Origin: Eucommia ulmoides
Lineage: Eukaryota; Streptophyta; Magnoliopsida; Garryales; Eucommiaceae
Length of the DNA stretch: 64,000 nt
Assembly: GCA_016647705.1 (NCBI GenBank)
Contig: CM028328.1
Span: 46,928,647 to 46,992,646 of the forward strand
Direction: 5' to 3'
A program made the translations under genes and the position numbers. The stretch's first letter is position 1; every line of letters begins with the position of its first letter. The notes under the pieces were generated by a model, which saw only the letters and a list, made by a program, of their open reading frames with translations, was not told where the DNA came from and made no database searches. Below are positions 15,799 to 63,292 of this stretch, piece after piece.

Positions 15799-17197
15799 TA
15801 GTAGCGCATAAATATGTCGCTACTTTCACTCGCAAGTGTACGAGGTCAAGTTTTAGTATAGATCGGGAGAGTAAGAGTATCGTGTCCATAGGGATTGGTT
15901 GTGACTATTTGAGTACCGTGTTTGTCATGATCTAATTTTATCTAGGCTAAAACAAATGTAATTAATTAATATAAACTAATACTAAAATACTAATTAAACT
16001 ATAATAATACTATTATGAGATGTTTTAGGGAAAATCTTACCTAGGGATTAACTTTTGTTTACAAAAACGTGTTCGGTCTCGCTTTAGTTTACGTTAATGG
16101 CGTTCGGGTATCCAACAATCTCGGTTCGTAAACTCACTCGCCACCTCTCTCAAGTGTGAGACGAGTTAATACATGACTTCGCGTCAATGGAGAAGTCTCC
16201 CTCAACATCTTAATGATGCTAGGTCATGTGAGTCTCGTTCCAACGTCATTGATTGCACACTTTCTAACGCCCTCCCGGGTCATTAGATTGTCGTGTTGTG
16301 CTTACCCTAGTGCAAATCTAGGGTTACCTCTCTTGAGTGTCTAACCCCGTATTCTCTAATTATCTAAACAAGCATAATAACAGGACAACACGACAAACAC
16401 AATCAAAATTATTATAAAACATACATTAACGAAACACAAACTAAAACAGAACTACATTTTCATAAATATATTAATCCCTAGACAAAAACCCGTTTAACTC
16501 ATGGTCATAGCCGGTTATACAATGAAAACAAACCTAAACATGCTCAACTAACTACTGAAGTTAAGAAATAAAAGAAGAAACAAAAGAAACTTAGCCTAGT
16601 CCAAAGATTTGTCGCTAAAAATGCTTCAGGATCGTTTCTCCTTTATCGCAATGTGATAATCTTCTTTGGAATTGGTTGAGCACTCCCAAAACCTCTCTCT
16701 AAAATATACTGACCCTAATAGTGCTCTAATGGCCGGAAGAGAGGAGAGAAAGGGGTATAAATAGGGAAAATATCCTAAAAATATCCTAAATCTGTGCCGA
16801 GGTGACCGCTGCAGCGGTGGGTAGGTCGGTTTGATGATCGCCTAGGCTGTGGAATCAGTGGTGGATTCAAGGACTTCTTTGCATTTTCATCGCCGCGGTG
16901 GTGGATGTCCAACAAGATTAGCCTTCTCTACATTTTCATCGTCGCGACGGTGGTCTGGACGCTGTGGCGATGGGCTTCTTTTCAAAATATTACCTCCGTG
17001 CTTATTTTTCGGCCATTTTTCCACCATTCTTGATATGATATCCTTGTTTAGCATCCATTTTTATACCGTTTCACCCCCACACACCTTATTAAATACAAAA
17101 AGAATAAAAACACATTAAAATATATTAAAACGTACTAAACATACTCGAAAACTAACAATGTTCGGATTGGAAATAAATAGGTAATTTACACCTATCA
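15799..17197 (-). repeat. Athila-type LTR 1 (1.40 kb)
   Basis: Starts TAGTAGCGC and ends ACACCTATCA in plus orientation. Contains the palindrome CCGCTGCAGCGG (16806-16817), GCCTAGGC (16840-16847) and CGTCGCGACG (16940-16949), next to a TATA-like TATAAATA near 16756-16763. Confidence 0.85.
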
Positions 17198-18441: not shown

Positions 18442-20041
18442 TAGTAGTGTGTGAATACGCTGCTACTTTCACCCGCAAGTATATGACATCAAGTTTTAGT
18501 ATAGATCAGGAGAGTTAGGGTTATTGTGTCCACAAGAATTGGTTTTGACTATTATTGAGTACCGCGTTTATCATGACCTAATTTTATCTAGGTGAAAATA
18601 AATGTGTTTAACATTAATAATACTAATATTAAGTTAATTAATCTAATTAAATTAACTATACTAATACTATTATGAGATGTTTAGCGAAAGTATTGCCTAG
18701 GGATTAACTTTTGTTTACAAAAACGTATTTGGTCTCGTTTTAGTTTGCGTTAACGGCGTTCGACTTATCTGATAATCTGAGTTCGTAAACTCTCCTGCCA
18801 CCTCTCCCGAGTGTAAGACAGGAGAATACATGACTTCACGTTAACAAATAAGTCCCCCTCAATGTCTTAACGACACTAGGTCATGTGAGTCTCGCCCCAA
18901 TGTCATTGATTGCACACAATCCAACTCCCGACCAGGTCATTGGATCGTCGCGTTGTGTTTACCCTATTGATAATCTCAGTTCTAAAACTCTGCCACCACC
19001 TCTCCCGAGTGTAAGACGGTAGAATACATGACTTCGAGTCAACAAAGAAATCCCTCTCAACGTCTTAAAGACCCTAGGTCATGTGAGTCTTACCCCAACG
19101 TTATAGATTGTCCACAATCCTAACCCCGACCGAGTTATTGGATCGTGGCATTTGTTTACCCTAGTCCAAATTCAAGATTTGTCAAACCCTGTATTCTCAT
19201 AACATCATTCTAAGCATATAAATAAACAATACGTCATACACAATCAAAATAATGAAGAACATCTGCAAACAAAACATAAACTCAACAAAATAATATTTTC
19301 ATAAATTACATTAATCCCTAAACAAAAACCCGTTTAGCTCATGGCCATAGCCAGTTATACAATGAAAACTAAGCTAAACATGCTCAAACAACAATCCTAT
19401 GTTAAGAAATAAAAGAAGGAACAAGAGAAACTTAGCCTAGTCCGAAGATTTATCGCTAAAAATGTTTTGAGATCGCTCCTCCTTCGTGGCAACGTGATCT
19501 TCTCCTTAGGATTTGAATGAGCACTCCCCAAAACCTCTCTCTAAAATATACTAAGTCCTATAGAGCTCTCATGGCTGGAGGAAAGGAGATGAGAGGAGGA
19601 GGTATAAATAGGGAAAATATCTAAAATAAATATCTAAATCTATGCAAAGGCCACCGCCGCGGCGGTGAGTTGGTCGGTTAGTTGATCGCCTAGGCGGTGG
19701 AGTCGGCAGTGGATTTGCTGACATCCTGCATTTTAACCTCCGCGGACATGAATCTTAGTGCCACGGCGATGGACGTTTAGCAAGAAATCAACTCTCTGTA
19801 TCTTCATCGCCGCGACAGAGGTTTGGATGCAACCGCAGTGGGCTTCTTTCAAAATAATGCCGCCTTGCACATTTTTCCATCGTTCTTCGACCGTTCTTGG
19901 TTTGATCTCATTGTTTACGCTCTGTTTTCCTACCTTTTCACCCCATATACCTGATTTAGTACAAAAAGAATAAAAACACATCAAAATATATTAAAACGTA
20001 CTAAACATACTAAAAAACTAACAACGTTCGGATTGGAAATA
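18442..20041 (-). repeat. Athila-type LTR 2 (1.60 kb, right end missing)
   Basis: It carries an internal tandem duplication of ~195 bp (18770-18964 and 18965-19160) that LTR 1 and LTR 3 lack, so it belongs to a different subfamily. It contains the perfect 16-bp palindrome CACCGCCGCGGCGGTG (19652-19667) and CGCCTAGGCG (19687-19696). It ends abruptly at GGAAATA. Confidence 0.8.
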
Positions 20042-32536: not shown

Positions 32537-33489
32537 TATATCCAAAATATTCTTATTTGGGAATACAACGATCTAATTCAATAATCTGCAAGTCTTGTTC
32601 ATGCAATTAAGAACAAAAATAGACAATAATAATAATACATTCAACTTAATAGTCAAGATTCACCAAGAAAAGACAAAAATGAAGATAGAAGATAAAATTC
32701 CACTGCTCAAACATAAATCAGCTTCAAGTATTCTATTTTAGTAGAGAACATACATTAGAAATATAAGGAAATGAAAATATTACCTCTTCATGGAAGTAAA
32801 AGAAGAAATCAAGAAATGGATGGTCGAATAAATGTAAAAAACTTTCTAACGAACAAAAGAACAAAGATATTAGAGTTTGGAGAGTGTAATAATGAATTTC
32901 ATAAATATATAATAGACAAAGAATTCGGAGAGAAAAACCAGAGCTAAGAATCTACACTATATTTTGTTGATTGAGTAAAGACACTTCTAATACTGTTTCA
33001 ATTTGTTAAGGCCTTAAGTTTCTATTTAATGATCACGATCACCATAGAAAACTTCTTCACAAATGGAACCCAAAACAATAAACTACTTCAAATTAGCCAA
33101 ACATTTAGAATTAAAAAAGAGAAAAGAAAAAATTGCCATAATATCCCACATACCTGCCAGAGACACGATCGCTCAACCTAGATTGGAAGATGAATCCAAG
33201 AATTATGGATTAAACCTATCGCTTTGTCTATAATTCCCACCCAGTTCATCCACGTTGTGAACGGGCCCCCCTATCCCAAGAAATACTCATCCACCCCCTT
33301 TGAAACCCTGATTTTCCCAAATCTAAAACCCATTTCCTCATAGCAATCTCCACTGTCCACCGAAACATTCACTCCGAATACCTCATGGCCAATTCAAGAT
33401 TCGACTCTCTATCTCTCTATTTCTAACTGTTCGTGATACATAAAGTATCTAAATCTGAGACAAAAAAACACTAAACGAACGTGACCATA

Positions 33490-35845
33490 AAAATAGAATC
33501 ATATAAATGCAAAACCAAACTATTTTCAGGAAAACTAGCCAAATGTTCTAGTACAAACTAACTGAACTGTTTTACTGAACATGTAAAATGTGTTATCTTA
33601 AAATGGCATATTTTTGTAAGTTCTATCTTGGATCATGAGCATTAAAGATCTAAAAAATAAAAAGAAAATTGAAATTTAAAATTGTAAAGAAACTCAATTT
33701 TGTGTTTGTGAAAAATTAGCTTTAACTTCTTTGATATTATAGATTAACAAAATGGAGATGAAGCAAGACTATGTGAACTTGTAAAAACAAAAATTAAAAA
33801 ATAATACTGCACAGAAAATAAGCAATCCCAAACCGTAAGAATTATAAAATAAAAAAGTAACTAAATCGATAGCAAGGAATCCAAAAAAAATTTAAAATCA
33901 TACAACAAATTGAGACGGACCAAAATAAAGAAAGAAATATTCAAAAAGAAATATAGAGATGGATAATGAGAACCCATTGATTTAAACATTCACAATAGAT
34001 ACAGAGAGAGATCAACAAACCTTGAGGTCGTTGCGAGAGTGAAAGAGCAAGAGCGAAACATTAATAGGAAATCCAGATTTGGATCCCCCATACACAAACT
34101 AATTGCCTTAACTCCTACATTAAGGTTCTTGGAATGAACCTGCATTTATTTAACTAAATATGTCAAAAATACATGATAAATAACTATTTGCAATAAATAT
34201 GTCAACAATACATGATAAATAACTATTCGCAATAAAATGCACTGAAAATATGTCAATAATACATGATAGTATCATAAAAGATTAAAACAGAGAAAGAAAT
34301 CAAATATAAAAATAGTATCATATGAATGCAATACCAAACTATTTTCAGCAAAGCTAACCAAATGTTCTAGTACAAACTAACCGAGCTGCTTTACTGAACA
34401 TATAAAATGCGTGATCTTAAAATGGTGTATTTTTGCAAGTTCTATCTTGCATCATGAGGATTACAGATCTAAAGAAGAAAAAGAAAATTGCAATTTAAAA
34501 TTGTAAAGAAACTCAATTTTGTGTTTGTGAAAAGTTAGCTTTAACTTCTTTGATATTATAGATTGACACAATGGAGATGAAGCAAGACTATGTGAATCTG
34601 TAAAAACAACTATTAAAAAATAATACTGCACAGAAAATAAGCAATCCCAAACCGTAAGAATTATAAAGTAAAAAAGTAACTAAATCGATAGCAAGGAATC
34701 CAAAAAAAATAAAATAAAAAAATCATACAACAAATTGAGACGGACCAAAATAAAGAAAGAAATCTTCGAAAAGAAATATAGAGATGGACAATGATAACCC
34801 ATTGATTCAAACATTCGCAATAGAGACAGAGAGAGATCAATAAACATTGAGGTCATTGCGAGAGTGAAAGACCAAGAGCGAAACATTAATAGGAAATCCA
34901 TATTTGGATCCCCCATACACAAACTAATTGCCTCAACTCCTACATTAAGGTTCTTGGAATGAAGCTGCATTTATTTAACTAAATATGTAAAAAATACATG
35001 ATAAATAACTATTTGCAATAAAATGCACTGAAAATATGTTAACAATACATGATAGTATCATAAAAGATTAAAACAGAGAAATAAGTCAAATATAAAAATA
35101 GTATCATATGAATGCAATACCAAACTATTTTCAGCAAAACTAATCAAATGTTCTAGTACAAACTAACTGAACTGTTTTACTGAACATGTAAAATGTGCGA
35201 TCTTAAAATGGCGTATTTTTGCAAGTTCTATCTTGGATCATGAGCATTAGAGATCTAAAAAAGAAAAAGAAAATTGCAATTTAAAATTGTAAAGAAACTC
35301 AATTTTGTGTTTGTGAAAAGTTAGCTTTAACTTCTTTAACATTATAGATTGACACAATGGAGATGAAGCAAGACTACGTGAACCTATAAAAACAAAAATT
35401 AAAAAATAATACTGCACAGAAAATAAGCAATCCCAAACCGTAAGAATTATAAGATAAAAAAGTAACTAAATCGATAGCAAGGAATCCAAAAATAAAATAA
35501 AAAATCATACAACAAATTGAGACGGACCAAAATAAATAAAGAAATCTTCAAAAAGAAATATAGAGACTAACAATGAGAATCCATTAATTTAAACATTCAC
35601 AATAGATATAGAGAGAGATCAAAAAACCTTGAGGTCATTGCGAGAGTGAAAGAGCAAGCGCGAAACATTAATAGGAAATCCAGATTTGGATGCCCCATAC
35701 ACAAACTAATTGCCTAAACTCCTACATTAAGGTTCTTGGAATGAACCTGTATTTATTTAACTAAATATGTCAAAAATACATGATAACTAACTATTTGCAA
35801 TAAATATGTCAACAATACATGATAAATAACTATTTTCAATAAAAA
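33490..35845. repeat. Three ~0.8 kb tandem units inside the Helitron
   Basis: Units begin near 33490, 34309 and 35095 (each AATAG.ATCATAT.AATGCA) and share CAAACTATTTTCAG, TGTTCTAGTACAAACTAAC, ATACTGCACAGAAAATAAGC and GCGAGAGTGAAAGA. They differ by scattered substitutions and small indels, roughly 93-96% identical by eye. The minus strand of each holds AACGACCTCAAG/GTTTGTTGATC or a variant, which looks like a splice donor, so a captured gene piece may have been triplicated. Confidence 0.85.
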
Positions 35846-35875
35846 TGAACTCACTCAGAATTTTTAGCTTTACTA

Positions 35876-37528: not shown

Positions 37529-37536
37529 TATTTATA
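37529..37536 (-). promoter_or_regulatory. Likely TATA box of the Athila LTR
   Basis: The minus strand reads CCTATAAATACCCC, a canonical plant TATA context, just downstream (in sense) of the palindrome array and upstream of the long transcribed leader. Position-matched in the other LTR near 48599-48606. Confidence 0.7.
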
Positions 37537-37587: not shown

Positions 37588-37976
37588 TTCCGCCTAAGCG
37601 GTAGAAACTTCGCTTAGGCGTAGCTGAAGTCGGTTAGAATTTCTCCTAAGCGATAGAATCTTTGCTTAGGCGGAGGACTAACTTCTTGGCTCCTTATCTT
37701 TCTGACGGAATTCTGCCTAGGTGGTAGCTACTTCGCCTAGGCGGATTTACAGCAGTGCAGCACTATCTAGCAGTTCAGTTCATCCAGCATTCTGATGGAT
37801 TTTCGCCTAGGCGGTGGAAACTTCGCCTAGGTGGATTCAATACTTCAGCCCTTGCAACCTTCTAATAGATTTCCGCCTAGGTGGTGGAAACTTCGCCTAG
37901 GCGGATTTCAAATCTTCAGTTTTTGCATCTTTCTGCCGAATTTCCGCTTAAGCGGTGGAAACTTCGCCTAGGCGGA
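37588..37976 (-). repeat. Palindrome array in U3 of the Athila 3' LTR
   Basis: Six units of about 36 bp spaced ~60-75 bp apart, each made of two 10-13 bp arms around GTAGAAACTT or GTGGAAACTT. Examples: CGCCTAAGCG (37591-37600) with CGCTTAGGCG (37611-37620); CGCCTAGGCG at 37734-37743, 37804-37813, 37894-37903 and 37965-37974; CCGCTTAAGCGG at 37944-37955. The array sits just upstream of the TATA box in element sense. Confidence 0.9.
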
Positions 37977-40971: not shown

Positions 40972-41589
40972 TTTCCTTGAAAATTAAAATCACAACACCA
41001 ACCACAATAATAACAATAGAACAAGTAATTCAAACCCTAGTCAGCGAACCAAAGCCAATCAATACAAAACTCACAAGATATCCCACCAACCATAACCAAA
41101 TCACATTTTTGTCGCAATGTAGCACAAACTACATGATTCACATTGTATATCAACACAAAAATATGATAGGGTTTATCATTGAGCATTCCTCAATCCCAAA
41201 TAGCATGAAAACCGCAACTTAGGGTTTAAAGGGGTTTAGGGTTCCAATCAAATCCAATGTTTTGTTGAAATAAATGAGCAAATGAAGCAAATAATTCAAC
41301 AACTAAATGAAAAATAGGATCATTGACACTTGTTGAAAAATTTGATCAAATCAGTTGAGAATGGCGATTTCGCACTATTTCACCCTTCGAACCCTAATTT
41401 TTTGAGAATGGGCAGAGAAATTCCTCGTTTGGATGAAGAGTTTTGGTGAAAATCCAAGTTTTTAGCACTATAGAATGAATCTTTAATGGGAGGAAGGAAT
41501 TTGGGATGGTAAAATTGAGAGGTTTCTTGAAATATTTAGGAGGAAAATGTCGTTTGCGAAGTGGATTGTGCGTTTTAAAAACAGAGTTC

Positions 41590-41945
41590 GTGTATATTCG
41601 CCTAGGCGGTGGTTTTACTGCTTAGGCGGATTAGCGTCTTTTTCTTTTTTTTAAAAAAAAACCTCTCTGGTGTAAATCCGCTTAGGCGGTGGTTTTTCCG
41701 CCAGGGCGAGTTTACACCAGTGTGAAAGTTCAATTTTTCTTCAATTTTCCACCTAGGCAGTGGTTTTACCGCCTGGGCGAAATTTTGGTACTGTAAAAAT
41801 GCTGATTTTTTTTATCCAATTTTCGCCTAGGCGGTGGTTTTACCGCCTAGACGAAATTACGCCAGAATGTTTTCTCAGCCTTTCTGTCCAATGTTCGCCT
41901 AGGCGGTGGGTTTACCGCTTACGCGAATTTTTGCCAGTGTGGACC
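41590..41945 (-). repeat. Second palindrome array, between pol and the env-like gene
   Basis: Five units like those of U3 but with the loop GTGGTTTTAC, for example CGCCTAGGCGGT (41824-41835) facing ACCGCCTAGACGAA (41840-41853), a 14-bp stem with one mismatch. Unit spacing is about 60-80 bp. In element sense it lies ~0.6-1 kb upstream of the env-like start and ~0.3 kb after pol. Confidence 0.9.
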
Positions 41946-42206: not shown

Positions 42207-43440
42207 CTATCCTTCAACGAGGGAGATGTTCTCCACAACTCGCTCTTCATCCTTGAAGTAATGCTTGATCCGCTCCCCGTTGACTCGGAAAGTTCGTCCG
42301 TCTTTGGCTTCTAGCTCCATAGATCCAAATGGATAGATATGCTTGATCCGGAACGGTCCAAACCACCGGGACTTCAACTTTCCGGGAAAGAGCCTCAGCC
42401 TTGAGTTAAACAATAGGACTTGTTGGCCCGGACTGAACTCCCTCCGGACTATCATTTTGTCATGCCACCTCTTCATTTTATCATTGTAGAGCTTGGCATT
42501 TTCATAATCCTTGTGCCGAAATTCCTCCATTTCATTCAATTGGAGGAGACGTTGCGCACCAGAAGCTTTTATGTCAAAATTGAGTTTCTTAATCGCCCAG
42601 AATGCACCGTGCTCCAATTCAATGGGCAAATGGCAAGCTTTCCCAAACACCCATAGATACGACGACAGGTCAATCGGTGTCTTAAAAGCCGTGCGATACG
42701 CCCATAAAGCATCATCAAGCTTCATCGCCCAATCCTTGCGATTTGTATGAACCGTCTTTTTTCCAGAATTAGCTTGATTTCTCGGTTTGAAACTTCCGCT
42801 TGGTCATTTGTCTGTGGGTGGTATGGAAGCGCTACCTTGTGTCTCACTCTATACTTTTCCAACAAGGCATTGAGCATTTTGTTACAGAAGTGGGTCCCCT
42901 CGTCACTGATTAAGGCTCGAGGTGTCCTGAACCGTGTCATGACATTATGTTGAAGGAACTTTAACACCACTTTGGCATCATTGGTACGTGTTGCCACGGC
43001 CTCAACCCATTTGGACACATAATCCACCGCTAGCAGAATATACTCCTTCCTAAATGAGGGCAGAAATGGCCCCATGAAATCCAAGCCCCACACATCAAAC
43101 AACTCAAGCTCAAGAATTGACGTCAATGGCAATTCATGCCTTCTTGATATGTTACCCACCCTTTGATATCTATCACAGGTTTTTACAAACGTATATGAAT
43201 CTTTAAACAAAGAGGGCCAGTAAAAACCTGATTGAAGTACTTTTGATGCTGTCCGAGTCGTACCGAAATGGCCGCCACAAGGTGATAAATGGCAATGGTA
43301 GAGAATACTAGCCATTTCCTCTTCCGGAACACATCTCCGGATCACCTGATCAGCACATTTCTTGAATAGCAATGGCTCGTCCCACAGATAATACTGAGCA
43401 TCAAAAAGAAATTTCTTCATTTGGGCTCCCATCAAGTCAG
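42207..43440 (-). pseudogene. Athila integrase
   Basis: Minus-strand translation contains the HHCC region ([37 protein letters not shown]) and the catalytic core ([48 protein letters not shown]). The C-terminal module follows with [37 protein letters not shown] and [12 protein letters not shown]. Family role: DNA insertion. Fossil. Confidence 0.9.
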
Positions 43441-43539
43441 GTGGTAACACGCCACATAAAAGATAATTAACAATGTCAGTATACCACGGAAGTGCATTTT
43501 CTACTAAAAAGAGTTGTTCGTCAGGGAACACTTACGTGA

Positions 43540-44120
43540 TATTAGACTCGTCACCAACGTGTTCTTGGATCAATCTCGACAAATGGTCGGCAACAACGTT
43601 CTCACTCCCCTTTTTGTCCCTTATATCCGCATCAAACTCTTGTAATAAGAGAATCCACCTTATCAACCTTGGCTTGGCATCTTTCTTTGCAAATAAGTAT
43701 CGGATAGCTGCGTGATTTGTGTAGAAGATCACTTTTGACCCAATGATATATGAACAAAACTTATCACAAGCAAAGACCACCGCTAGCATTTCTTTCTCGG
43801 TTGTGGTGTAATTCTCCTGGGCGTTATTCAATATTTTGCTTGCATAATAGATCAAGCAGAAGATCTTCTCCTTCCATTGGCCTAAAACCATGCCAATGGC
43901 ATAGTCACTCGCATCACACATTATCTCAAATGGCATTTCCCAATCCGGAGCGACCATTATTGGAGCTGTGATCAACTTCTCCTTTTTCACCTTAAACGCC
44001 TCCATATAAGCTTCATTGAATTTAAAAAAAGTATCCTTCTCAAGAAGGTGACATAACGGCTTCACCGTCTTCGAGAAGTCCTTAATAAAACACCGGTAAA
44101 AGCTGGCATGCCCCAAGAAA
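43540..44120 (-). pseudogene. Athila RNase H
   Basis: Blocks seen: [80 protein letters not shown] and [11 protein letters not shown]. These are the typical gypsy RNase H connection and domain. Fossil. Confidence 0.9.
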
Positions 44121-44129
44121 CTTCGAACT

Positions 44130-44960
44130 CCTTTCATATTTATTGGTGGTGGAAGCTTCTCAATCATTTCTATCTTTGCTCGGTCCACCTCAAGCCCTTT
44201 GGAAGAGACTCGATGACCAAAGACGATCCTCTCTTTAACCATAAAGTGGCACTTCTCCCAATTTAGAACCAAATTCTTCTTTTCACATCGGTCAAGAGCA
44301 AGCACCAGATTGTAGAGACAGTGATCAAAGGACGATCCAAAGATTGAGAAGTCATCTATAAAGATTTCCATTTTCTCCTCCACCATATCAGAAAATATCG
44401 CCATCATACACCGTTAGAAAGTTGCCGGTGCATTGCAAAGGCCAAACGGCATACGTCGATACGCAAACGATCCATACGGGCAGGTGAAAGTCGTCGTCTC
44501 TTGGTCCTCCGATGCAATGGCTATTTGATTGTAACCAGAATAGCCATCAAGGAAGCAGTAGTACTCATAACTGGCTAAACGATCTAGCATTTTGTTAATG
44601 AAAGGAAGAGGAAAATGATCTTTCCTTGTTGCCTTATTTAATCTCCTATAATCAATACATACACGCCATCCTGTGATGGTCCGTGTCGGAATAAGGTCAT
44701 CATTCTCATTCTTTACTACCGTCATGCCTCCTTTATTTGGCACACTTGCACCGGGCTCAACCACTCACTATCGGATATAGCGTATATAATTCCTGCATTT
44801 AAGAGCTTCAACACCTCCGCTCTCACCACTTCCTTCATAGCCGAATTTAGCCGCCATTGATGTTCAATGGAGGGTTTGAACGTATCCTCCATCAAAATCT
44901 TATGCATGCACACCGACGGACTAATTCCCTTGATATCCGAAATAGACCAAGCGAAAGCGG
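44130..44960 (-). pseudogene. Athila reverse transcriptase
   Basis: Ordered RT blocks: MKEVVRAEVLKLLNAGIIY, WRVCIDYRRLNKATRKDHFP, YYCFLDGYSGYNQIAI, FTCPYGSFAYRRMPFGLCNA and [11 protein letters not shown] (the catalytic box in the Athila FIDDFS form). Fossil with a few breaks. Confidence 0.9.
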
Positions 44961-45354
44961 ATCGGTGCCTCTTCAAGATTCTCAGCAACTTACTCTCCTC
45001 TTCTTCCGTCAGAGTTGATGAAATTATAACTGGATCGGTCAAATTCTCTCCCAAAAAGATATACCGAAGGTGTTCCGGTAATTGCTTGAGTAATAACCCA
45101 CCGTGAGGCGGATTTGATTTCTCGGGAGAGTCTTCAACTTCTTCAATCTTCGCCACATGAATAGGATAATCTACGTCTTTCGGTTGAGCGTCAAGAGCTA
45201 GCACGTATTCCACAACATCAAGGTCCGTGGTAGAGCCTTCCTCACCAAGATCCCCCATAGATAAGGAACTTGTGAGAATGCTCTCTAAGGAATCCATATC
45301 CATGTTTGCAAGAAAGAACTCCCGCACGCAAGAGTCCACAACATCAACTCGATT

Positions 45355-47627: not shown

Positions 47628-49220
47628 TGTACGCGCTTAGATTCACACCATATTTCCTCCTCGCAGTAATTGGACTACTCGCAAGTGTACGAGGTCTAGT
47701 TTTAATATAATGGATCTTTTAGGATCGGATATCGTTCCACTGGGAACGGTAGGTAATTCGGTTGAGTATTGCGATTTCAATAGTTTCATATTATCTCGAC
47801 TAATCAAATTTTGTTTGTTTTCTAATTACTATACTAAGATAAATGACAACTATAAAGTTAGTTTTAATTACACTAATTACTTAGGTATAAATCTCGTTCA
47901 TATAATGAATAATCGATTTCATTTAGTTAGCTATAACGGTTTTTATCTAATCCGACAACCTCTGTGTCAATAACTCCTCTGCTACCTCTTCCGAGTGTAA
48001 AATGAGGGATTACACGACTTCGTGTCAACGAAGAAGTCCCCTTCAATGCCTTAACGACCCTAGGTCACGTGAGTTTTAAGCCAACGTCATGGGTTGCATA
48101 CGTTCTAACACCCTCCCGGGTCGTTAGAACGTCACGTTGTATTTACCCTAATCTGAATCCGGGGTTACTTCTCCCGAGTGTCAAACCCCGTATTCTCGGT
48201 TTATCAATACAAGCATAATATCAAGAATAACAATAAACACAATCGGATTTAGACAAACAACACATTAAAGTAACATAAATTTACTCAACTAAACGGTTAC
48301 ATGATTTCGACTACTCCTAAGTAACATTTAACTACTACTATACGATCTTAGCCATATACCATACAAAATAAGAGGGATTCAACATTCTTAGATATGAAAA
48401 AGTGATTACAAAGAATAAAACAAGAGAGAAATGATCAAATCTGGAAGTGAAACGGTTCACTATCACTAATGATCGATCTGCAAGTTATCCTTCTTTATCT
48501 GAATGATGAACCTCCTTCTTGATCTTCAAAATATAGCTTAAGAGCTTTCTTCTAGGGTTAGGGTTCTTCAACAACAAGTTTCAGACGTGGCCAAGGGGTA
48601 TTTATAGGCCTAGGGGTTCCAAAATATCTAAACAGATATTTTGACCTATTTTGCGATTTCCGCCTAAGCGGTAGAAACTTCGCTTAGGCGGAGCTTAAGT
48701 CGGTTAGAATTCCGCCTAAGCGGTAGAATCTTTGCTTAGGCGGAGGACTAACTTCTTGGCTCCTTATCTTTCTGACGGAATTCCACCTAGGCAGTAGCTA
48801 CTTCGCCTAAGCGGATTTACAGCAGTGCAGCTTTATCCAGTAGTTCAGTTCATCCAGCATTCTGATGGATTTCTGCCTAGGCGGTGGAAACTTCGCCTAG
48901 GTGGATTCAATACTTCAGCCCTTGCAACCTTCTGACAGATTTTCACCTAGGCGGATTTCAAATCTTCAGTTTTTGCATCTTTCTACCGAATTTCCGCCTA
49001 GGCGGTGGAATCTTCGCCTAGGCGGAATTTCTCTGTTATTTGAAACCTCATTTTTTCATCTTTTTTGCTACCCTTTTTGCACCATTTCGCTCGGTTTGCT
49101 GATTGTTTACTTCCCTGCTCCTGACTAATAAAAACAGTTAAAATGATATTCAGACTTCAATAAAGTACTCGAAAACTGGAAAATTCGGTTTAGAATTAGA
49201 TAGGTATTTTACACCTATCA
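47628..49220 (-). repeat. Athila 5' LTR
   Basis: Starts TGTACGCGC and ends CACCTATCA. It pairs with 36558-38175 but has lost roughly one palindrome unit near 48940-48960. It holds CCGCCTAGGCGG at 48994-49005, where the other LTR has CCGCTTAAGCGG. The right duplication copy ACCAT follows at 49221-49225. Confidence 0.95.
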
Positions 49221-58849: not shown

Positions 58850-61800
58850 TGTATGGCGAAGCGTTTGTTATGCACTTGGTATTGACTACTCCCAAGTGTA
58901 CGAGGTCAAAGTTTTAGTATAATGTGATCTAGAAAGATCGGGTATCATATCCACAGGGATTGGTATCGTTATTATCGAGTACCGTAATTGTCATGACCTA
59001 ACTTTATCTAGGCGATCAAAAATGTAAATAATATAACCTAAATTATTTATACTAATATGTTGTAGGGGAAAGAATTGTCTAGGGATTAATGTGGTTTACA
59101 AATACACATTTGATCTCAATTGACTTATGATAGGTGTAAATTACCTACGTATTTCTAATCCAAATTGTTAGTTTTCGAGTACGTTTGTAGTTATTTTTAT
59201 ATGTTTTAATATGTTTTTATACTTTTTGTATAAATCAGGTGTGTGGTGCAAAAAGATAGGAAACTAGAGCAAAAACGATGAGATCGAATCGAAGGCGAGT
59301 CGAAGTTACGGTGGATAAATAAGCAAGGAGGCAAAAATATGAAGGAAGCCCACCGCCTAGGCGTCCAGACCTCCGCCTAGGCAGTGAAGATGCTGAGAAT
59401 GACAAAAGGCTACTGACAGCCCACCGCCTAGGTAGGAAATTCCTCCGCCTAGGTGGAAACCCCAGTAGAAACATTTTCAAATCCACCGCCTACTTCTTCG
59501 CCTAGGCGGTCACCAAACTTGCAAATCCAGTACAGGTGCTGTAACTTCAAGGCTATTTTTTACTATTATGCAATCCGATTTTGGAAATACTCAAAACATG
59601 GAAGTTGTATAAGGTTTTCTTATATTTCCATAGGTTTTTGAATCACCTCAATCAGAGTTCGGATGAAGAAGTTACAACTAAAACAAAATTGTAAACCTGC
59701 AGTAACTTCGCCTAGGCGAAATTCTGGCAGAAAGTTAACCGACCTAACTTCGCCTAGGCGAAAATCCTGCAGCACAATCTTGATATTTATTAGATATTTT
59801 GAGATCATTTGGCCATTTTTTAATCCCTTATCTCCTCTTCTCTTCCCTCTATTCAGCCCTTAATACCTTAGGCCATATTTTAGGAGTAGGATTAGGGATT
59901 TTGAGGGAGAGCTATAAACCCAAGGTGGAGGATGAAGAGGGAAGCGATCGTTTGAGGCTAAGTCACTTGTTTCTTCTCTTTGTTTTCTTCATTTAGGTAG
60001 TTGTTAAGCATGTTTAGCTCGTTTTACATTGTATAAATGGTTAGGGCCATGAGTTAAACATGGATTGTAATAGGGATTAACGTATTATTTATGAAAATGT
60101 AGTTTTGGTTGAATTTGTTTTTTGTTCTTGGTTGTTCTTCGTATGTTGATTGTGTTGTCGTGTTTTCTATGATTATATGCTAGTTTAGATATATTGAGAA
60201 TATGGGATTTGACACTCGGGAGAGGTAACCCCAGATTCGGACTAGGGTTAACACAACACGACAATCTAATGACTAGGGAGGGCATTAGAAAGTGTGCAAT
60301 CGATGACGTTGGGGCGAGACTCACGTGACCTAAAGTCGTTAAGACGTTGAGGGGGACATCAGGGTTGACATGAAGTCACGTATTCTCCCGTCTTATACTC
60401 GGAAGAGGTGTCGAGGGAGTTTACGAACCGAGATTGTCAAATACGCTGAACGCCGTTAATGTTAACTAAAACGAAATCAAACGTATTTAAGTAAATAAAG
60501 TTAATCCCTAGGCAATCTACTCCCCTAAACAATCTCAAATTAGTATTTATAGTATAGTTAACTTAATTAGTATTTTAGTTTAGTATTAGTATTAAATTAA
60601 AATCCATTTTTGTCGCCTAGATAAAGTCAGGTTATGATAATCGGGATACTCGATAGTAACAACACCAATCCCTGTAGATACGATACCCGACTGAAAGGTC
60701 CACTATACTAAAATTTGATCTGTAGGCTTGCGGTAAAAGTGGAAACGCTTTATTTAGCGGCCACCGACTTACATATACGGTGTTCGACCTATTTGAAAAT
60801 CTCGGTATCTAAAACTCCTCCGCCACCTCTCCCAAGTGTAAAACGGGAGATATAACACAACTTTGTGTCAACAAAAAATTCTCCCTCAATGTCTTAGCGA
60901 CCGTTGGTCGCATGAGTGTCACCTCAACGTCATTGATTGCACACAATCCAACTCCCGACCGGATTGTTGGATCGTGCGTTGTGTTTACCCTATCGATAAT
61001 CTCAGTTCTAAAACTTCACCACCACCTCTCCTGAGTGTAAGACGGGGGAATACATGACTTCAAGTCAACGAAGAAATCCCCCTCAATGTCTTAATGACCC
61101 TAGGTCACGTAAGTCTTGCACCAACGTCATCGATTATCCAAAATCTAACTCCCGACCAAGTTATTGGATAGTGGCATTTGTTTACCCTAACCCGAATCTA
61201 GGGTTTGTTAAACCCTGTATTCTTCATGTATCTATCTAAGCATAATTAATAAACAATACAATAAACACAATAAAACTATGAAGAACAAACATAAACGCAA
61301 TACTGAAATCATACGAAACACATATTTATAAATATAGTGTTAATCCCTATACAATCCATGTTTAACTATGGCCATAACCGCATTTACAAATAAAGCACAA
61401 GCTAAACATGCTCACAAAATCCTAAGTTAAAGAAATAAGGGAAGAAATCGAAGAACTTAGCCTCATTCGAAAATTTGTCGCTAAGAACCATTCAGTGATC
61501 GCTTCGCCGTCTTCCTCCATTTCAGGATGTGAGCTCCACTTCTAAAATTTCTAAATCCAACCCTAAGTATAACCCAAGGGACTCTAATGGCCAAAACTTC
61601 TTTGAGGAGAGGAGTAAATATTTATAGGCAAAATATCTCAAAAATATCTAATAAATATCCTAAGTTGTGTAGAGGCCACCGCCACGGCGGTAAGTAGGTC
61701 GGTTGGCTGATCGTTGTAGCGGTGAAGAAAGTGGTGGATTAGGATGACATCCTGCAGTTTCATCGCCTAGGCGGTAAGTGTCCAGCAAGAATAGGTCATT

Positions 61801-62038
61801 CTCTGCATTTTCACCGCCGCGGCGGTGGGTAACTTTCAAAATATTTCCGCCTTGCTCGTTTTCCACCGTTCTTAGTTCAATCTTATCGTTTTCGCTCAAG
61901 TTTCTTATCTTTTTGCCCCATACACCTGATTTATAAAAAAAGTATAAAAACAAATTAAAACATAATAAAATAAATATAAAAACTACTCTAAAACTAACAA
62001 AAACGGTTTGGAAATATGTAGGTAGATCACACCTATCA
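58850..62038 (-). repeat. LTR of the non-autonomous element, right, interrupted
   Basis: 58850-59127 and 60772-62038 form one LTR, split by the solo LTR at 59128-60766. Contains CACCGCCGCGGCGGTG (61812-61827) and CGCCTAGGCG near 61764-61773. Confidence 0.9.
59128..60766 (+). mobile_element. Solo Athila-type LTR nested in another LTR
   Basis: Reads TGATAGGTGTAAATTACC at the start and AGCGGCCACCG at the end. Perfect target duplication ACTTA at 59123-59127 and 60767-60771. Contains the perfect palindromes TTCGCCTAGGCGAA at 59707-59720 and 59749-59762. Same subfamily as 28566-30149 but opposite orientation. Confidence 0.95.
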
Positions 62039-62887
62039 AGTAGCACTAGAGAGAAGCCAAGGCTGTGGCTAGGAAGGAGACGTCGTCACGATCAGAGCAA
62101 GCCCCCATGCCTTCTTCCTAGAAGTAAAGCATCATGGTGAACCAAGAGATGGAGGAAGAGGAAGGTGGAGAGGACATGGGCTGAGGGATTGAAAAATGCT
62201 AGAGCTGAGGGGACTCTTGGAGCTCCCCAGCCAAATAAAGCTTTTACCCCTGCATCATTCCTGACCTCGGACACAAGTCTTCTTTTGGCCAACGGACCCT
62301 AGACCACCCAGAAAAGTTATTTGTATATGTTAGACATATCATCCCCCCTCCCCCCAAAAGACCAAGAGCAAGTAAATGCTGAGCTAGATGAATAGAGTGC
62401 TACCATGCTACAAAGGGATGCGATGTTAGTAAGGCTGATGCTGAAATTCGTTTTGACTCTTCATTGCACTTTGTTCTTGGGCAATTACATGACACACATT
62501 TTTTTTACAACTACTGTCTAGGGCCTCTTCACTATCTGTATGCTTCCACTCTTCCATGGAGAAAGAGCAAAAACTTAATGAGGAGCGCCGACAGCACTTG
62601 GCCCAAGCGAGGAGATGACACGAGATGACCAAGAAGCTAATGATTAGTGAGAGTAGCGCTAGGGAGGACGTGATAAAGATGATCAGGGAGAGGATAAGGC
62701 TAATTGAGGAGAATGAGGTCCTCGAATCATGATCCAACAAGCTTCAGGCCGACCTCACTACTGTTCTGGAGAGGATTAAGGAAATTGAGAAAGAACAAGT
62801 TACTGCACTAGCCAAGGCCAAGGAAGAGGCTGTAAGTGAATGGATGGAGTCCCTAGCCTTCATCGAAATGAAAACACTCCTGGCAGC

Positions 62888-63292
62888 TGAGATGGTAGGG
62901 GACGGCCACAGATATACGATCCGCAGTCTGCGTCGCCAGTACCCAAACTTTCGAGTTGATAAAATTGGCATGGATTACTTAGATGTTAAAGGAGATATTG
63001 GTATTGCGATGGGGGATGTGGAAGCTGAGCAAGGAGATGTTGATGCCGAGATGGGAGAAGTCGAAGCCGGCCATGGCAAAATGAGATGGGAGCTGAGATG
63101 GTAGGGGACGGCCACAGATATACGATCCGCAGTCTGCGTCGCCAGCACCCAAACTTTTGAGTTGATAAAATTGGCATGGATTACTTAGATGTTAAAGGAG
63201 ATATTGGTCTCGCGCTGGGGGATGTGGAAGCTGAGCAAGGAGATGTTGATGTCGAGATGGGAGAAGTCGAAGCCGGCTATGGCGAAATGAGT
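62888..63292 (+). repeat. ~200-bp tandem duplication in the C-terminal part of the gene-like unit
   Basis: The segments near 62888-63086 and 63095-63292 are nearly identical (both contain GAGATGGTAGGGGACGGCCA and GATGTTAAAGGAGATATTGG), differing at about eight sites. The repeat encodes the acidic series GDVEAEQGDVDAEMGEVEAG. A recent duplication inside an old unit. Confidence 0.85.

Follow-up and report, generated by a model that had tools for sequence, protein, structure and literature searches.

Arrays of paired palindromic boxes upstream of the LTR TATA box and between pol and ORF3 in a Ty3/gypsy retrotransposon family of Eucommia ulmoides

Background

Palindromic motifs standing at two places of one retrotransposon have been described for Sireviruses, which belong to the Ty1/copia elements (Bousios et al. 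2010, PMC2829016). According to the description given there, their RMs are mostly GC-rich dyad boxes, numbering at least eight per RM-bearing element, which form one cluster ahead of the TATA box, in the upper half of the LTR, and a second one preceding the ENV-like gene (77 of 79 linker copies). The box sequence is particular to each element, and the RMs were called Sirevirus-specific against classic Ty1/copia elements. The authors suggested an internal promoter, which they could not conclusively identify (PMC2829016). Neither the mode of expression of plant env-like ORFs nor the reader of the palindromic LTR arrays was settled by the Sirevirus work. For maize Sireviruses, an LTR cis-region with palindrome clusters and strong predicted structure was tied to small RNAs (Bousios et al. 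2016, via PMC10760457), and maize Ty3 elements are described in the same source as generally lacking an obvious structure peak (PMC10760457).

Three further systems are relevant here. Arabidopsis Athila6A is described as having a defined internal promoter for its ENV ORF, together with an intron (PMC4977677). The 3' ORF of a sunflower Athila shows, as reported, partial similarity to PF20167, with nuclear localisation signals predicted in its protein (PMC11728184). Finally, the account of VANC/VANDAL anti-silencing (Hosaka et al. 2017, PMC5735166) describes tandem arrays of short motifs in non-coding TE regions, these motifs varying between related TEs and evolving with their reader protein.

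Results

The window (the whole 64-kb stretch of DNA analysed here) contains ten related LTRs (L1 to L10) and, on its minus strand, one full-length element consisting of a 5' LTR, a gag-side ORF, pol, a PF20167 ORF (ORF3) and a 3' LTR (Table 1). The two LTRs of this element, L5 (3') and L6 (5'), are separated by a K2P distance of 0.055 over 1,595 aligned bases. Its gene order (RNaseH ORF at 43532-44407, then integrase ORF at 42722-43531, minus strand) places RT-RNaseH before integrase, so the element is Ty3/gypsy, and the extra sense ORF between pol and the 3' LTR (PF20167, 40093-40971) agrees with the Athila lineage; the label Athila itself is taken from an earlier note on this DNA. The gag-side ORF gave no Pfam match, no relative of the ORF3 protein was found at E <= 0.001 among 853 candidates, and a search of viral contigs yielded no relatives. 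Other repeats of the window are a stretch of ~198 bp duplicated in tandem towards the U5 end in L2 and L10 (18770-19163 and 60798-61189), at the place of which L7 and L8 also show two adjacent matches, tandem copies of a ~800-bp unit, three of them in register and ~90% alike in most comparisons (33375-35847), and a 206-bp tandem duplication, 95% alike (62881-63291).

Table 1. Coordinates of the palindrome arrays and of the element features in the window
Feature	Position	Strand	Remark
U3 array of L5 (3' LTR of full element)	37590..37976	-	six paired-box units; site of the earlier note's finding
U3 array of L6 (5' LTR of same element)	48655..49031	-	five complete paired units and one single box
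U3 array of L1	16780..16965	-	CGCG- and TGCA-type cores
U3 array of L2	19640..19830	-
U3 array of L3	22760..22960	-	decayed
U3 array of L4	29580..29930	-	decayed
U3 array of L7	50730..51020	+
U3 array of L8	56520..56760	-
U3 array of L9	59345..59770	+
U3 array of L10	61660..61830	-	with fused palindrome 61812-61827
Internal array, pol-ORF3	41598..41926	-	same boxes, 20-bp pairing; spacer mostly TAAAACCA, not AGTTTCCA (element sense)
ORF3, 292 aa	40093..40971	-	PF20167 'putative plant transposon protein', E 1.3e-32
ORF3 leader	40972..41597	-	pyrimidine-rich at its start
pol	42207..45339	-	split over several ORFs; RT-RNaseH (PF17917, PF17919) ahead of integrase (PF17921, PF00665)
gag-side ORF, 415 aa	45355..46602	-	named from position alone
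TATAAA of 3' LTR	37531..37536	-	~50 bp downstream of last box
TATAAA of 5' LTR	48601..48606	-

GC-rich palindromes (at least 10 nt, at least 60% GC) occur 24 times in the window, whereas 30 first-order Markov sequences averaged 7.1 and reached 13 at most; 20 of the 24 fall inside 11 array intervals, drawn round the arrays by the analyst and amounting to 3,181 bp in total. The palindromes listed in the earlier note are present and are no chance feature, those given with coordinates being ACCGCTGCAGCGGT at 16805-16818, CACCGCCGCGGCGGTG at 19652-19667 and 61812-61827, CGTCGCGACG at 16940-16949, and TTCGCCTAGGCGAA at 59707-59720 and also at 59749-59762. CCGCTTAAGCGG is located at 37944-37955. A perfect 12-base CCGCCTAGGCGG occurs a single time, at 48994-49005, and elsewhere this palindrome either takes the form CGCCTAGGCG or has an end mismatch. 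In the whole genome (947 Mb), CCGCNNNNGCGG occurs 41,499 times and the reversed control pattern 6,112 times. The proposed placement just upstream of the TATA box was likewise recovered: in each of the ten LTRs, the last site is succeeded by a TATA-like word, at a distance of 33-65 bp counted from the site's start, although in L2, L8, L9 and L10 the first such word may not be the true box. We noticed no report of palindromic arrays in Athila LTRs in the open-licence PMC literature, where the exact string CGCCTAGGCG gave five matches, all unrelated.

The true repeat unit proved to be a pair of boxes, 20 bp from start to start. Among 27 sequences, one of them the window, 115 box pairs had a spacing of 20-23 bp, and in 84 of these it was 20 bp; distances of 50-52 and 70-72 bp separate the paired units. 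The half-sites of the window boxes are CCGC and GCGG (CCGC-N4-GCGG type); in element sense, the commonest unit is box-AGTTTCCA-box in the LTRs and box-TAAAACCA-box in the internal array of the window. As a single stem can also form between two palindromes that lie 8 nt apart, symmetry in these units may refer to a palindrome or to a hairpin. Another array type, with 23-bp spacing and non-palindromic CGAA/TTCG centres, was seen at G000:C1:554407, 638961 and 740448.

The internal array lies 627 bp upstream of ORF3 and ~3.6 kb from the U3 array. An array occupies the pol-ORF3 position in all 16 copies cut out with the leader (L032, the window's own, to L047; taken from 40 scored of 797 candidates), L026 has an equivalent internal array 664 bp upstream of its ORF3, and the array of L029 adjoins the ORF3 of L014. 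When 18 ORF3 loci were chosen for diverse match lengths from 150 scored, 15 had at least three box-like 12-mers upstream of ORF3 (the others being L058 with 1, L062 with 0 and L065 with 2), by a loose criterion that counts overlaps, gives about 0.5 for a random 700-bp stretch on a rough estimate, and lets L049 pass with three, two of them overlapping. Elements whose ORF3 proteins are 44% identical also carry box arrays at both places. In the ORF3 leader, the splice donor CAAGTAAGT of a putative 5' UTR intron is present in 7 of the 16 copies and an acceptor-like YAG beside the ORF3 ATG in 9, the window copy having neither, and CAAGTAAGT recurs in the leaders of L029 (window subfamily) and of L018 and L030 (other subfamilies). 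Within L032-L047, the donor is made or removed by the presence or absence of four bases, CAAG[TAAG]TGTC, which 7 of 16 copies contain. In the window, we found no TATAAA following the internal array.

We compared the U3 and internal arrays of nine elements, using array intervals cut by eye and including seven 3' regions fetched for elements with known internal arrays, six of which had a U3 array. The two arrays of one element tend to match: the sharing of GC-rich 8-mers averaged 0.20 within and 0.08 between elements, and the within-element sum was 1.81 versus 0.87 permuted (fraction 0.00066 of 362,880). AT-rich 8-mers were shared at 0.052 within versus 0.037 between elements, indicating that the array flanks match little. 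With regard to the leading core, (i) CTAG leads in the window element and e052, (ii) TGCA in e051, e063, e049 and L030/L031, which may form one lineage, (iii) CGCG in e060 and, with few boxes, L018, and (iv) e050 is mixed in both arrays, its internal array best matching the U3 of a TGCA element (0.18, own 0.12). The internal array of L018 likewise matched the U3 of e060 (0.25) better than its own (0.18), and the own U3 was the single best match in only 3 of 9 cases, which is mostly due to cross-matching between subfamilies of one class. The motif common to both arrays is GGCGCTGCAGCGCC-like in L030/L031, where a piece of ORF3 matches PF20167 (4.9e-14), CCGCCGAGGCGGTG in L018 and CGCCTAGGCG in the window.

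As the box sequence agrees while spacer and flank differ, a single protein reading both arrays is the simplest account. Possibly, the likeness could instead come from neutral repeat turnover, in which slippage, unequal exchange and unit copying, together with template switching that homogenises both arrays, leave symmetry and matching as by-products. We consider this doubtful: boxes match between arrays more than the AT-rich flanks do, the window spacers differ, template switching would be expected to carry the flanks along too, and the same two array places are found in elements as distant as those with 44% identical ORF3 proteins. In favour of neutral turnover, units do duplicate and delete, as illustrated by the box lost from unit 2 of L6 and by the 61812 palindrome of L10. 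Rather than a paired change, the latter looks in the alignment like a deletion that fused the left half of one site to the right half of the next. Also in keeping with turnover are the toggling of the same cores at homologous sites, the lack of an excess of double changes in one box, and the large share of CpG decay in the asymmetry, all described below.

Three palindromic core classes, CTAG, CGCG and TGCA, replace one another between LTRs and subfamilies. Paired change in the LTRs was tested at 6 homologous sites in 8 of the 10 LTRs (41 rows out of a possible 48), on a neutral tree built from 970 columns outside these sites. True palindrome partners had 16.1 co-changes versus 7.1 for permuted ones (fraction 0.003), and co-changes ending in a Watson-Crick pair amounted to 8.4 versus 2.7 (fraction 0.0014); without the centre pair, the fractions were 0.017 (all) and 0.008 (Watson-Crick). 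The signal comes mostly, not solely, from the centre TA/GC. At several homologous sites, the centres TA and GC toggle in different subclades. Paired substitution and the exchange of palindromic units fit this pattern equally, and such exchange can explain much of the signal.

The covariation that the earlier note had proposed to look for is present in the alignment of eight LTRs. In the 16 units of the window's full element (L5, L6 and the internal array), palindrome pairing was not significant (144/192 versus 142-147 in shuffles) and was rejected; hairpin pairing of the same units reached 151/192 versus 147 shuffled (p=0.10). Selection on shape, as argued there, agrees with 60 flank clusters of paired boxes, drawn from the 27 sequences with families and core classes mixed, in which core pairing exceeded shuffles both as palindrome (139/240 versus 100) and as hairpin (147/240 versus 101), and disagrees with units at 23-bp spacing, in which core pairing was below shuffles.

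Genome-wide, with the arms fixed, CTAG/CTAG units numbered 3,811 and single changes 924 and 655. From these single-change rates, with a CTAG/CTAG start assumed and changes taken as independent, 79 cases were expected both for the palindrome-keeping double change (CTAG to TTAA in one box), found 35 times (0.44), and for a symmetry-breaking control in which the two boxes change identically, so that neither kind of pairing survives, found 70 times (0.88); these counts are of copies, not events. Both the 35 and the 70 forms are spread over many spacers, and single-step intermediates are abundant (924 + 655 single versus 35 double). In internal-array units 4 and 5 (14 and 15 copies counted), the first box has a non-palindromic centre (CC, TC or CT). 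Core turnover with symmetry is thus real between lineages, but within one box there is no excess of recent paired substitutions, and the mechanism put forward in the earlier note is supported in part.

Alternatively, selection may act on nucleic-acid structure, the two boxes of a unit pairing, as RNA or as extruded DNA, into a stem of 12 bp with a loop of 8 nt, so that the hairpin and not the single palindrome is kept. The fixed 20-bp pairing of boxes fits such a possible structure, as do the complementary pairs CTAA/TTAG (1,103 versus 56 expected, 19.7x) and TTAG/CTAA (504 versus 28, 17.9x), although these counts are again copies, not events, and the forms are concentrated in few spacer families, the two orders in different ones (first 50 places each). 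When each of 30 flank clusters at 20 bp was given one vote, the raw counts of 28 hairpin-keeping, 6 palindrome-keeping and 20 neither became 11, 6 and 13 cluster-positions, respectively, with no preference. Internal unit 2 varies as a paired stem would (G-C 9, G-U 3, A-U 4, A-C 0 in 16 orthologous internal arrays), but in their usual forms units 1 and 6 contain one A-C mismatch each, and units 4 and 5 two or three mismatches. RNA folding was strong in L5 (z -6.1), L6 (-9.7), the internal array (-11.0) and L9 (-6.0), and weaker in the other seven arrays (-0.2 in L1 to -5.0 in L10), while the antisense strand folds equally well or better relative to shuffles. Hairpin covariation, strong in raw counts and weak once copies are clustered, was accordingly rejected as the main explanation, and we hold selection on the hairpin to be unlikely. 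At 41667-41721, an extra 10-bp inverted repeat (CTGGTGTAAA/TTTACACCAG) flanks one internal unit and lengthens the stem, with related flanks in other copies.

The 41 site centres of the LTR alignment are TA (20), GC (11), AC (6), GT (3) and TC (1). AC and GT being CpG-transition products of GC, some 9 of 20 GC-type centres would have lost symmetry, versus about 1 of 21 TA-type centres, which points to asymmetric decay of dead copies; the remaining symmetry presumably dates from active lineages. In the U3 arrays of L1-L4 and L7-L10, CpG decay is lopsided in element sense (CA 20 versus TG 8, 11 columns), and outside these arrays it is even (44 versus 41, 28 columns). In the homologous box 37713-37724/48783-48794, both CpGs were lost on opposite strands (CTGCCTAGGTGG versus CCACCTAGGCAG, window + strand), as if by strand-coordinated deamination.

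Discussion

On balance, we lean towards the palindromes being putative dyad boxes for one sequence-specific, probably dimeric, factor that acts on two promoters. Each Athila-type subfamily would use its cis-regulatory box code twice, once shortly before the TATA box in the LTR and once between pol and ORF3, where the internal array would stand ahead of a leader resembling a promoter with a 5' UTR intron. The U3 and internal arrays would be read by one such protein, and a shift in the preferred core of this reader would shift both arrays of a lineage in step. Both arrays changing together would keep symmetry between subfamilies while the core differs, and a dimeric reader would explain why the interchanging core classes are themselves palindromic; dead copies would afterwards decay asymmetrically, largely at CpG. 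What we observe are the arrays with their positions, the pairing at 20 bp, the core classes and the tendency of both arrays to agree within an element; we infer that the internal array of the window element acts as a promoter, that a protein binds the boxes, that it is dimeric and that a single factor is involved. The internal ENV ORF promoter described for Athila6A (PMC4977677) makes promoter function at the pol-ORF3 array credible. Against a factor serving two promoters stand the mixed arrays of e050, the closer match of the L018 internal array to the U3 of e060, the own best match in only 3 of 9 cases, the possible single origin of the TGCA elements, the depletion of palindrome-keeping doubles, some non-palindromic centres (CC, TC and CT; CGAA at 23 bp), the scarcity of box-like 12-mers in L058 and L062, and the missing TATAAA after the window's internal array.

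If such a factor exists, one binding a given core class would be expected to affect the two promoters of its own subfamily more than the promoters of other subfamilies. The PF20167 ORF3 protein, or another encoded by the element, is a candidate for this factor, improbable as we judge it, and the nuclear localisation signals predicted for the sunflower 3' ORF (PMC11728184) keep an element-encoded reader conceivable. Were this true, each Athila subfamily would possess a private self-recognition code, with a VANC-like activator or anti-silencing protein in an LTR retrotransposon, and the CTAG/CGCG/TGCA switches would record changes in its DNA specificity.

As described in PMC5735166, VANC/VANDAL is the closest precedent for co-change of motif and reader, sharing with the present family motif arrays that vary between related TEs; in VANDALs, which are DNA transposons, the element encodes a known reader, whereas the reader here is postulated. 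Athila6A shares the internal promoter for the ENV ORF and the intron, both putative in the window family; the palindromic array described here is not mentioned for Athila6A in the part of PMC4977677 concerned. The maize Sirevirus cis-regions, as summarised in PMC10760457, are alike in having palindrome clusters with predicted structure in the LTR. With the Sirevirus RMs, the window family has in common that dyad boxes cluster in U3 ahead of the TATA box and recur upstream of a post-pol gene. In contrast to Sireviruses, the window element is Ty3/gypsy and not Ty1/copia (the integrase-before-RT order is absent), its half-sites are CCGC...GCGG and not the CGG-CCG signature, and it has the fixed 20-bp pairing and the PF20167 ORF. 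The window element thus works like the Sirevirus RM system without belonging to it and would be its Ty3/gypsy counterpart, and the same two-place layout in Ty3/gypsy suggests independent arrival at one design.
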